Source: a virus. From it: 25,259 nucleotides of DNA. A program made the translations under genes and the position numbers. Location: the IMG/VR virus record IMGVR_UViG_3300042549_011226, positions 1 through 25,259 of that record. One strand, 5' to 3'. The notes beneath the pieces were generated by a model that searched no databases, was not told the origin of the DNA, and worked only from the letters and a program-made list of their open reading frames with translations. Below are positions 22,389 through 25,259 of the stretch, one piece after another (position 1 is the first letter of the stretch; every line of letters begins with the position of its first letter).

Positions 22389-22574
22389 TCAACCCCCTTC
22401 AGGTGAATGAGCTAATAAATGCTCTATACGGTTTTTAGCCCGCTCAACTGCATAGGCATATTTAAATACCACGGCCCGAATATCATCCGGCAGGCTGGCA
22501 TAAATCTGGTCCGCCTCATTGAACGCACTCATCGCACGGCGAGCTTCTTTTACTGTATCCATTTTCTTAGCCAT
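22389..22574 (-). CDS. Small hypothetical phage protein
   Basis: A 61-residue basic helical protein (MAKKMDTVKEARRAMSAFNE, then ADQIYASLPDDIRAVVFKYA, then YAVERAKNRIEHLLAHSPEGG). Its ATG lies inside the end of the antirepressor gene (8-bp overlap), with AAAGGAG 8 nt upstream, so the two are co-translated. Helical, lysine/arginine-rich and without transmembrane segments, it could bind nucleic acid or another protein. No family is recognised. Confidence 0.65.
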   Translation of the reverse strand: MAKKMDTVKEARRAMSAFNEADQIYASLPDDIRAVVFKYAYAVERAKNRIEHLLAHSPEGG

Positions 22575-23517
22575 TTTGCGGCTCCTTTGGTGAACCCAAC
22601 TCAGGGAGAGCTGGCAAAGGTTGGCCTAAAGCTCCTGCAATTTCACGTAATAGCCCCACAAGTACATTTCTAGAGAACGCCTCCTTACTTTTTGCAATAT
22701 CCAAAGCCAGCTGCCTTGCCATTTTAAGCAGGGCCAGCCGGTCTTTAGTCAGCGCACCACCGGCGCTATAAAAGCCTTGTTTACGGATGGCGGGCAGTAC
22801 CAAGCTGCCGATCCACTCCTTAAACGGCTTCACTTCTGGCTTGCGGCTACCTGCCAGTAAAATAAACACACCGGCCTCGCTGACTAAATTCAGCGGCTTA
22901 CCCTTAGCCTCTATTGAGCGCATGGCTACATCTTCAGCTTCCAACCGTTGCACGGCCATCGTTGGATTACCCAAGCCAATTGCCTCGCATACATCGGCCA
23001 CGACAAACCACACCTCACCATCGTTACGCAGTAACACCCGCACATCGATGCGGTTTTCAAAGCAGTAGCTAAACACAAACCCTAGATTTGGCGCGGCTTG
23101 CGGCGTATCGCTGGTCGGCTGAATGCTTAGTGTTTTGCCTTCTAATACATCCAGTACCCAACGGCGGAAAGCTTTAGCGTTTTCGGTTTGAGCAAACATC
23201 CCCAATAAATAGCAACCACGAGGAGAGAAAATCCGAACTTCGCGGGCTTGACCTGAGCTTGCAGATTGCAAGCTCAGATCACCTGCGCTCCCATTTTGGG
23301 AGCGCAGGTCAGGCAACTTAACCAAGGCCGTCATTGAGTCATCAAACTCATCAGCATGGCGAGTATATAACTCGGACATTTTGGCCCTTGGGCTTTGATA
23401 ACCTAGAGCCGCCCCAATTTGAGCCCCTCTCAACCAAGGCTTGCCGTGAATATCAACCACATCAAATGCAGTTTCTTGAAAAACTAAAGCTGAGGACGTG
23501 CTAGAATTAAGGTTCAT
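22567..23517 (-). CDS. BRO-N domain antirepressor (P22 Ant-like by position)
   Basis: A 316-residue protein with two BRO-N-like domains. The first is about residues 12-127 (FDVVDIHGKPWLRGAQIGAALGY, ending in VRIFSPRGCYLLGMF and AKAFRRWVLDVLEG). The second is about 150-250 (VRVLLRNDGEVWFVVADVCEAIGL, then SEAGVFILLAGSRKPEVKPFKEWI and LPAIRKQGFYS). A short helical tail follows. BRO-N proteins include phage antirepressors that disable lysogenic repressors by direct binding. The place here, downstream of an Arc-like gene and with an antisense RNA over its start, matches P22 ant. The ATG at 23517 has AGGGA 7 nt upstream. Residues 70-88 are encoded by two tandem hairpin repeats. The likely target is the C1-type repressor at 6387; this is inferred. 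Confidence 0.85.
   Translation of the reverse strand: MNLNSSTSSALVFQETAFDVVDIHGKPWLRGAQIGAALGYQSPRAKMSELYTRHADEFDDSMTALVKLPDLRSQNGSAGDLSLQSASSGQAREVRIFSPRGCYLLGMFAQTENAKAFRRWVLDVLEGKTLSIQPTSDTPQAAPNLGFVFSYCFENRIDVRVLLRNDGEVWFVVADVCEAIGLGNPTMAVQRLEAEDVAMRSIEAKGKPLNLVSEAGVFILLAGSRKPEVKPFKEWIGSLVLPAIRKQGFYSAGGALTKDRLALLKMARQLALDIAKSKEAFSRNVLVGLLREIAGALGQPLPALPELGSPKEPQNG
23251..23310 (-). repeat. Two tandem 30-bp hairpin units inside the antirepressor gene
   Basis: Unit 1 spans 23281-23310 and unit 2 23251-23280. Each is an inverted repeat with 13-bp arms and a 3-nt loop on the coding strand, and the two are direct repeats of each other (21 of 30 bases equal). The differences keep pairing: three base pairs differ by compensating changes and one becomes G-U. 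They encode 10 codons each (DLRSQNGSAG and DLSLQSASSG) in a loop of the first BRO-N domain. Confidence 0.85.
23499..23507 (+). promoter_or_regulatory. Extended -10 promoter for the sar-like antisense RNA
   Basis: The plus strand carries TGC followed by TAGAAT (23502-23507), an extended -10 element that can work without a good -35 box. A TTGAAA (23476-23481) lies 20 bp upstream, too far to be optimal. The start site would be near 23514, opposite the antirepressor ATG. Confidence 0.55.
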
Positions 23518-23586
23518 GTTATTTCCCTTGTAAGTTGTGGCATGTAACGGCCTTAAGGTGTTCCACCACCTTAGGGCCTTTCTTTT
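23514..23586 (+). ncRNA. Sar-like antisense RNA over the antirepressor start
   Basis: A predicted RNA of about 72 nt on the plus strand. It begins at about 23514, after the extended -10 box at 23499-23507, covers the antirepressor start codon (23515-23517) and its ribosome site (complement of 23524-23528), and ends at a terminator at 23549-23586. The terminator stem has 12 bp, all paired in the plus-strand RNA (one G-U), while the minus-strand RNA would carry a C-A mismatch. The TTTCTTTT tract is also on the plus strand. In P22 the sar RNA, about 70 nt long, similarly lies between arc and ant and represses ant translation. Promoter and terminator are visible; expression is a prediction. Confidence 0.65.
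23549..23586 (+). terminator. Intrinsic terminator of the sar-like RNA
   Basis: Arms GGCCTTAAGGTG (23549-23560) and CACCTTAGGGCC (23567-23578), with loop TTCCAC, are followed by TTTCTTTT (23579-23586). The only imperfect pair is G-U in the plus-strand RNA, but C-A on the other strand, so the element favours plus-strand transcription. No plus-strand protein gene ends here. Confidence 0.8.
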
Positions 23587-23595
23587 GGCTGCTGA

Positions 23596-24309
23596 TTACG
23601 CGCATTTCTGCACCGCCTTTAAATAATCCCGTTTGGGCTGCCGCCCCGATCGCAAGCCTTCCAGCCTTTGCGCCTCTTCTTCCAACTCACTTCTCCCTGG
23701 TGTGGCATAAATCCGCGCACTGGCGGTGCTGCTCTGGCCCAGCGCATAGGCCACTTGCGCATACGGGTCTTTAGCCACAGTTTCCCTCATAATATTCCGC
23801 GCCTTTGTATGCCGAAACCAGTGTGGCGAAGCATCTGCAGGCAAGCCCGCCTTGGCCGCCCACTCTGCCAGCCGCGCCTGATAGCTACGCACCGACAAAG
23901 CCATGCCTTCTTTACGCCCCACCACCAAAGGCCCATCCACAATACGGTTCAACGCCAGCAATTGCCGCAGGGCCGCCGCCGCCGCATTGTTCAAGATGTA
24001 GCAATGGGCATTGCGCTCAGTTACCCGCTGCGCTTTTTGTGTCAGTGGATCCAACACCACCACACCTGCCTCTTTTAGCACCTTACCTTTCACCCCCTTC
24101 CGTTTTTCAGCCGCGATATACAAACGCCCATCCGCCAACCAGCGCTCTGCATCTTGCCGAGTAGACGCGGCAAACTCGCTGATGCGCAAGCCGGTTTCCA
24201 GTAAAAACTCATATACCGCCAAATCACGCTGCGCCAATTCATCGGCTCTATGCGCCTTTAGTGTCTTGAACAGCTGCTTGAGTTCTGCTTGAGTAAAGTC
24301 GTTATTCAT
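23596..24309 (-). CDS. Stand-alone tyrosine recombinase catalytic domain
   Basis: A 237-residue protein of the tyrosine recombinase family. Visible catalytic residues are Arg42 (TGLRISEF), Lys69-71 (AEKRKG), His163 and Arg166 (PHWFRHTKAR), Gln192 where His is usual (LGQSS), and the Tyr201 nucleophile (ARIYATPG). The usual N-terminal core-binding domain is almost absent: only about 25 residues precede the catalytic fold. The start at 24309 is chosen over an ATG at 24315 because AAGGAG sits 6 nt before the former and directly abuts the latter. It lies between the Arc-like gene (19 bp upstream) and the antirepressor. The role is unknown: possibly DNA inversion, or a captured recombinase. It is distinct from the integrase at 1-1059. 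Confidence 0.85.
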   Translation of the reverse strand: MNNDFTQAELKQLFKTLKAHRADELAQRDLAVYEFLLETGLRISEFAASTRQDAERWLADGRLYIAAEKRKGVKGKVLKEAGVVVLDPLTQKAQRVTERNAHCYILNNAAAAALRQLLALNRIVDGPLVVGRKEGMALSVRSYQARLAEWAAKAGLPADASPHWFRHTKARNIMRETVAKDPYAQVAYALGQSSTASARIYATPGRSELEEEAQRLEGLRSGRQPKRDYLKAVQKCA

Positions 24310-24328
24310 CGTCATCTCCTTAAAACGT

Positions 24329-24496
24329 TTAAGAGGCTAATTCGACGCTGGGTTCAGACTCTTTCTGTTTTAAGCCCTCTTGAATAAAAAATAAAATCTG
24401 ACCGTTCACTGAACGACAACTGTGCTCAGCCTCTTCCTTTACCTTCTCTGCCAGCTCAGGAGGAACTCTGAGTTGCATCAATACCTTAGAAACCAT
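24329..24496 (-). CDS. Arc-like ribbon-helix-helix repressor
   Basis: A 55-residue protein: MVSKVLMQLRVPPELAEKVK, then EEAEHSCRSVNGQILFFIQE, then GLKQKESEPSVELAS. It has the ribbon-helix-helix layout: a beta strand (residues 4-10), a first helix (13-25), the turn RSVNG (28-32) and a second helix (33-44). Length and pattern closely follow P22 Arc (53 residues, with RSVNSEI at the same place). RHH dimers bind DNA with the paired strand. The AGAGGA ribosome site is 7 nt before the ATG. It is the first gene of an operon continuing into a recombinase and the antirepressor, and is divergent from the Mnt-like gene. It would repress its own promoter (24557-24585). Confidence 0.85.
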   Translation of the reverse strand: MVSKVLMQLRVPPELAEKVKEEAEHSCRSVNGQILFFIQEGLKQKESEPSVELAS

Positions 24497-24535
24497 TTTC
24501 AAATCCTCTTTCTAAACTCTGGTTGTTTTTAAATA

Positions 24536-24634
24536 ATGGCCTAGGGCCATACATACACAATAAATACTCTTAGTGGCAAAGTCAATAAAAAATATGGCCC
24601 TAGGCCACTAATTGCAATGATGGCTATCTGCCAT
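24536..24634. promoter_or_regulatory. Shared operators between the Arc-like and Mnt-like genes
   Basis: Three copies of ATGGC-N5-GCCAT lie at 24536-24550, 24594-24608 (last base C instead of T) and 24620-24634. The first sits at the expected start site of the Arc-like gene, the second directly upstream of its -35 box, the third fills the spacer of the Mnt-like promoter. A half-site (GTGGC, 24573-24577) lies between. Arc-type and Mnt-type repressors bind such dyads as paired dimers. Confidence 0.75.
24557..24585 (-). promoter_or_regulatory. Promoter of the Arc-like/recombinase/antirepressor operon
   Basis: On the minus strand, TTGACT (24580-24585) and TATTGT (24557-24562) are separated by 17 bp. 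Transcription would begin near 24550, at the edge of the first ATGGC-N5-GCCAT operator, leaving a leader of about 54 nt before the Arc-like ATG. Confidence 0.65.
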
Positions 24635-24647: not shown

Positions 24648-24926
24648 ATGCCTAAACAACTCACCCCTAGTCGCACAGCTGATAAGTACATTCTTCGTCT
24701 ACCAGATGGGATGAGAGATCTTATTGCCACAACGGCCAAGACCAACAACCGCACCATGAACGCAGAAATTGTTGCTCGTTTACAAAACTCTTTTGAAACT
24801 GAGCATTCAACCGAGAGCAACCTAAACACTGAAACCATAAAAAAAATGCTGCTCGATCAAGAGCAGCACTTAGAAGAAAAAATTAACAACGCCATGAGCG
24901 AGCTACTTAAAGTACTCAAGCCATAA
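24648..24926 (+). CDS. Mnt-like ribbon-helix-helix repressor
   Basis: A 92-residue protein. After a short N-terminal arm it has an RHH domain at about residues 12-50: YILRLPDG forms the strand, MRDLIATTAKTNN the first helix, RTMNAEI the conserved turn, and ARLQNSF the second helix. Residues 58-92 are predicted helix/coiled coil (ETIKKMLLDQEQHLEEKINN), like the tetramerising tail of P22 Mnt (about 83 residues). It is divergent from the Arc-like gene and separated from it by about 150 bp holding three dyad operators. The expected role is repression of the arc-ant operon in the prophage. It has no ribosome site and is probably leaderless. It ends in a bidirectional terminator. Confidence 0.8.
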   Translation: MPKQLTPSRTADKYILRLPDGMRDLIATTAKTNNRTMNAEIVARLQNSFETEHSTESNLNTETIKKMLLDQEQHLEEKINNAMSELLKVLKP

Positions 24927-25134: not shown

Positions 25135-25259
25135 TGAATCACACCGGGTTTCGCGGAGGCTCCAATTCTTGAGAGAATGGCGCCATGAAGAAATCAACTC
25201 ACTTTTCCCCCGAAGTCCGTGAACGAGCAGTTCGCATGGTCATTGAACACCTTGCTGAA
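25135..25259 (+). mobile_element. Left end of an IS3-family insertion sequence
   Basis: The IS appears to begin near 25135 (TGAATCACACCGGGTTT), a sequence of the kind seen at the ends of IS3-group elements, followed by the transposase start at 25185. The element runs off the right edge, so its other end, its target duplication and its completeness cannot be seen. The exact first base is an estimate from the break in the 25004 gene. Confidence 0.6.
25185..25259 (+). CDS. IS3-family transposase OrfA (partial)
   Basis: Only the first 25 codons are in the window: MKKSTHFSPEVRERAVRMVI, then EHLAE. This is the characteristic start of IS3-family OrfA helix-turn-helix proteins, which bind the IS ends. 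OrfB (the DDE catalytic part) would lie beyond the right edge and is usually expressed by -1 frameshifting. Family call is good; subgroup is not decided. Confidence 0.85.
   Translation, partial: MKKSTHFSPEVRERAVRMVIEHLAE

Follow-up and report, generated by a model that had tools for sequence, protein, structure and literature searches.

A predicted sar-type antisense RNA over the antirepressor start in an immI-like module of a viral genome

The antirepressor module and the gap before ant

The viral DNA analysed here (IMG/VR record IMGVR_UViG_3300042549_011226, positions 1 to 25,259; the window is this whole stretch of 25,259 nt) carries an antirepressor gene, ant, on the minus strand at 22567-23517. 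Its product contains two Bro-N domains (PF02498; phrog_5060, anti-repressor Ant). On the same strand lie a gene for a tyrosine recombinase (int, 23596-24315) and one for an Arc-like ribbon-helix-helix repressor (24329-24502; PF03869, 1.5e-07), while a divergent plus-strand gene at 24648-24926 codes for a Mnt-like repressor of the Arc family (PF03869, 1.3e-15). A candidate promoter for arc-int-ant, Pant, reads TTGACT-17-TATTGT at 24557-24585 on the minus strand. It is surrounded by two 21-nt inverted palindromes, at 24531-24551 and 24593-24613, with cores GGCCTAGGGCC and GGCCCTAGGCC, which are likely Arc/Mnt operators. A divergent Mnt-like gene thus faces an arc-ant operon and both repressors are Arc-type ribbon-helix-helix proteins, as in the P22-type module. 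The window is the P22 immI arrangement plus one extra gene, the tyrosine recombinase. A tyrosine recombinase gene also separates arc from ant in two close relatives, L002 and L003, whereas ant follows arc directly in L010 and L011.

Recombination genes are also found elsewhere. A second integrase and an excisionase-like gene occupy positions 1-1314 of the window, and its right end (25185-25259) appears, by eye, to be the start of an IS3-type transposase gene. In a related phage (L039:2510-3681), two adjoining paralogues of the arc-ant recombinase lie by a CII-like gene, outside any immI region.

In the gap before ant, the P22 sar layout and RNA folding led us to predict a sar-like antisense RNA of about 71-75 nt on the plus strand (23512-23586). 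Its start is placed at 23512-23516 from the position of the -10 element described below. Two stem-loops are predicted. The 5' one (23515-23544) presents in its loop the complement of the ant Shine-Dalgarno sequence. The other (23549-23578) is an intrinsic terminator with a stem of 12 pairs, 7 of them G-C, followed by the T tract TTTCTTTT at 23579-23586, which is found on the plus strand only. The plus-strand CAT at 23515-23517 complements the ant ATG, and CCCTT at 23525-23529 complements the Shine-Dalgarno sequence AAGGG on the minus strand, so the predicted RNA covers the ant ribosome site and ends within the gap. A preliminary description of this DNA had proposed an RNA of about 72 nt running from the ant ATG across the ribosome site to a terminator with its T tract on the plus strand, and this layout agrees with ours.

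The predicted structure is strong and favours the plus strand. Few terminator-like sites in a 20-kb scan are as strong as this terminator. For the 73-nt RNA of the plus strand, the predicted folding energy is -27.4 kcal/mol (z -4.9), a value that none of 200 shuffled sequences reached, versus -22.2 kcal/mol (z -3.05) for the minus strand of the same 73 nt. As had been pointed out earlier, the terminator stem contains one G-U pair on the plus strand that becomes C-A on the minus strand. We found three more such pairs, previously overlooked, in the 5' stem-loop, whose stability is -5.8 kcal/mol on the plus strand versus -1.2 on the minus. In all, four C-A positions thus interrupt minus-strand pairing in the window.

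The predicted promoter, Psar, is an extended -10 element, TGCTAGAAT (TGC-TAGAAT), at 23499-23507 on the plus strand, inside the first codons of ant and exactly as first described. The motif TGNTAKAAT occurs only this once across the 25-kb window, with 1.2 occurrences expected by chance. When both strands were scored with a sigma-70 -10 matrix, 3 of 50,500 positions scored as high as the Psar -10, which corresponds to 0.001 expected by chance in the slot tested. A -35 element is absent at 16-18 bp from this -10, and a TTGAAA stands 20 bp off.

Close relatives and a survey of antirepressor loci

L002 and L003, about 90% identical to the window, keep the stem, and their -10 is unchanged. In L002 the G-U pair of the window becomes A-U, and the sense strand forms a slightly more stable stem than the antisense strand. 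In L003 one pair of the 5' stem-loop is lost, which weakens this structure. Both have mnt/arc pairs and intergenic sites different from those of the window, and the palindromes flanking Pant are missing. Consequently, it is ant (or int-ant), rather than the repressor pair, with which the RNA appears to travel. L010 and L011 come from genomes of the family holding L002. There, Arc lies 71 and 82 nt ahead of ant, the recombinase is absent from the gap, and a homologous stem is found. L010 carries TGCTATTAT at the same distance (-16) as the -10 of the window and shares its first ant codons, though it lacks the N-terminal Bro-N domain. In L011 the stem is kept and the -10 is poor. Across the window, L002, L010 and L011, three stem pairs of the terminator changed on both sides, leaving 47 of 48 cells paired; shuffle support for covariation in this small close set is modest (11/500). 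The preliminary description had named the absence of promoter and stem from close relatives as a refutation; the relatives L002, L003 and L010 retain both elements, and the proposal stands. Another arrangement is found in L142, where arc and ant are separated by a T5orf172/MUG113-domain gene (L142:1483-1947) but the RNA elements still abut ant. The arc-ant gap thus seems to accept unrelated genes while the sar elements are retained.

We surveyed 96 Bro-N antirepressor starts from viral contigs, genomes and plasmids, with P22 Ant as a control. An immI-like context, defined as a divergent Mnt-like gene plus an upstream Arc-like gene, was assigned with a profile derived from Arc- and Mnt-like seeds and was found in 26 of the 97 starts (window and P22 counted in). 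A scan for strict antisense terminators gave weak enrichment over all Bro-N antirepressors (13/96 vs 13/173 control genes), and the terminator signal emerged only once these were split by immI context. Owing to its short T tract, P22 sar itself escapes the strict scan, and the tail criterion was therefore relaxed, before the held-out test described below. The 26 immI loci have their best antisense hairpin at the P22 position, with a T-rich tail and a -10 in the first codons. Compared with the 71 non-immI antirepressors, they differ in -10 score (p 4e-12) and in tail (p 3e-13), values overstated by the kinship of the loci. The antisense stem is more stable than the sense stem in 24/26 immI loci vs 40/71 of the others. 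Where Arc directly precedes ant, its stop lies mostly about 67-76 nt from the ant start, approximately the length of sar.

The held-out scan yielded 80 loci, of which 39 were kept at less than 85% start-region identity to earlier loci and to each other. All 39 are immI-type. Since immI-type Ants had supplied the query, this set bears on the RNA but not on the frequency of immI. Hairpin, tail and -10 were together present in 38 of the 39, with the stronger stem on the antisense strand in 36. Pooling both sets, 63 of 65 immI loci combine an antisense hairpin, a T-rich tail and a -10 at the P22 sar position. The same three features, loose enough to be passed by 14% of ordinary genes (33/238), occur in 2/71 other antirepressors (63/65 vs 2/71, Fisher p ~1e-33, again overstated since the loci are related, with 25 clusters at 60% identity and 18 at 50%). 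One of the two immI failures, L010, fails only because its start was set 38 nt too far downstream; once the ATG at position 1513 is taken as the start, terminator and tail are present together with TGC-TATTAT. The sar-like reading of the preliminary description was supported by nearly every test run.

The stems of the immI loci vary widely in sequence despite the kinship of the loci. RNAalifold predicted no pairs in a sequence-only alignment of 39 RNAs because stems of unequal length were misaligned, and pairs were instead counted among stems sharing one length. When the hairpins of immI loci are selected on the antisense strand, they contain 164 G.U pairs vs 4 A.C mismatches; selection on the sense strand gives 13 vs 43. 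In the 71 control antirepressors the ratio is balanced between strands (92:11 and 93:11). This asymmetry indicates that the structure appears to be kept for an antisense RNA. The sense transcript is left with a weaker structure, and transcription of the operon could then continue into ant.

Alternative roles of the hairpin

The hairpin could be a mere terminator of stray antisense transcription, placed before int and arc, with neither a dedicated promoter nor a regulatory RNA. The plus-strand terminator is indeed clear by sequence and the promoter has no -35. However, a -10 at the right distance is kept along with the hairpin in 63/65 immI loci. It is frequently a TGn-extended TGCTACAAT or TGCTATACT, and the P22 version is an annotated promoter. 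Moreover, this -10 is kept at varying distances from the ant ATG (-10, -12, -13, -16), so conservation of the encoded peptide alone is an insufficient explanation. We consider a bare terminator improbable. A little less probable still is that the hairpin serves the sense int-ant mRNA by attenuation, as a site of processing or by insulating translation. Such a role would fit the location of the hairpin in an intercistronic gap and the fact that the sense strand also folds a hairpin (-19.2 kcal/mol), but the T tract is missing on that strand, C-A mismatches interrupt the sense stem in the window and most relatives, and nearly all G.U pairs occur on the antisense strand. The hairpin could nevertheless act in both antisense and sense RNA.

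The least probable explanation, to which we give hardly any weight, is that the palindrome is a DNA operator for an Arc- or Mnt-like repressor, or a chance arrangement. The stem arm CCTTAGGGCC does resemble CCTAGGGCC, the palindromic operator core of the mnt-arc gap. The operator reading was rejected on the evidence of L002 and L003, whose mnt, arc and intergenic sequences are different and in which the core is missing, while the stem is nearly the same. Chance is countered by the recurrence of the arrangement in other phages. We therefore retain the interpretation of the window feature as the gene of a sar-type cis-antisense RNA over ant, to which, judging from the sequence, we assign a probability of about 0.88.

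Comparison with P22 sar and proposed mechanism

In the P22 record NC_002371, sar is annotated as a 70-nt RNA whose first base immediately precedes the ant ATG; the promoter lies inside ant and the terminator within the arc-ant gap. The -10 counterpart of the window Psar is TGCTATACT in P22, in full TGC-TATACT. The window RNA (about 73 nt) resembles it in lying directly over the ant start, in folding as two stem-loops with a 4-nt linker, and in its extended -10 inside ant. The similarity in position, length and target that had been pointed out at the outset is in agreement with annotation and folding. The surroundings are also alike, with a gap from the upstream cistron to ant and divergent Mnt-like and Arc-like repressors. 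In contrast, the target in the window is a tandem Bro-N protein, while P22 Ant is a P22_AR_N/P22_AR_C protein (PF10547, PF10548). PF02498 is the only one of these domains found in the window Ant, and blastp detected no similarity between the two Ants. The tyrosine recombinase between arc and ant is a further difference from P22, as is the origin of the closest relatives of the window, a Janthinobacterium-labelled MAG and another proteobacterial MAG.

The Rfam sar model RF00262 gave no match to the window even with relaxed E-values, whereas the same kind of search gave 97.8 bits on P22. Besides P22, its threshold was reached in 3 of 20 other immI loci scanned (L085, L086 and L094), most others falling short. 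These three are examples of immI loci with Bro-N antirepressors that have the gene arrangement of the window, with stem, tail and -10 in the same place. The window RNA is therefore best described as sar-type by its predicted layout and its immI-type module, and outside RF00262 as modelled. A DNA similarity search of phage records returned nothing, and a literature search, with subscription journals outside its scope, found sar in the context of P22 and near relatives.

Salmonella phage SPN3UB (L212), the one related enteric phage whose record was checked, has the same gene order as these immI loci, yet it carries no annotation of such an RNA. Its ant is annotated at 1123-1845, from a start that overlaps arc and crosses the sar-like gap, and Bro-N alignment supports a start further downstream. 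Annotations may thus hide sar-like RNAs, and ant starts in some other records may likewise be annotated too far upstream.

Other small RNAs act in prophage control, such as the c4 RNA of P1/P7. IsrK of Gifsy-1 (PMC4825925) and STnc6030 of BTP1 (PMC7067206) do so too. All three differ from the window RNA in position, origin and targets. To our knowledge, none of them is a short cis-antisense RNA over the ant ribosome site in an arc-ant gap.

In P22, sar prevents ant translation through base pairing (summarised in PMC13397905; see also Liao et al. 1987 and Wu et al. 1987, cited in PMC2629481). The window has promoter-like and terminator elements, a predicted RNA fully complementary to the ribosome site of ant, the immI arrangement, and joint conservation with strand-specific pairing. 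From these we infer transcription of the RNA and its exact ends and, by analogy with P22, the block of translation. RNA polymerase would start at the extended -10 promoter in the first ant codons, read away from ant across the start codon and ribosome site, and stop at the terminator in the int-ant gap; the product would be about 72 nt long and fold into two stem-loops. Like sar, this RNA would pair with the leader of the ant mRNA, blocking ribosome binding and ant translation. In the lysogen, antirepressor synthesis from the leftward arc-int-ant transcript would thereby be kept low. Its synthesis would also be shut off soon after infection, when Arc and Mnt have reduced the activity of the leftward promoter.

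A broader proposal, which we regard as somewhat better than evenly balanced, is that every antirepressor module under Mnt/Arc control includes, almost without exception, a sar-type RNA that can be transferred, whichever of several unrelated families the antirepressor belongs to and across proteobacterial phages, staying with the first ant codons while the ant body, mnt/arc and inserted genes are swapped. Such RNAs can be looked for by a simple rule: ant is preceded by a gap of about 70-80 nt, the hairpin is strand-asymmetric, and a -10 lies in the first codons.

In summary, our results suggest that an RNA of this type is present in nearly all immI-type antirepressor modules, including those whose antirepressor is unrelated, and that the sar-type off-switch is standard in phages well beyond those covered by the known RNA family. 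The control of the P22 antirepressor by two repressors and an antisense RNA thereby becomes testable as a general module.
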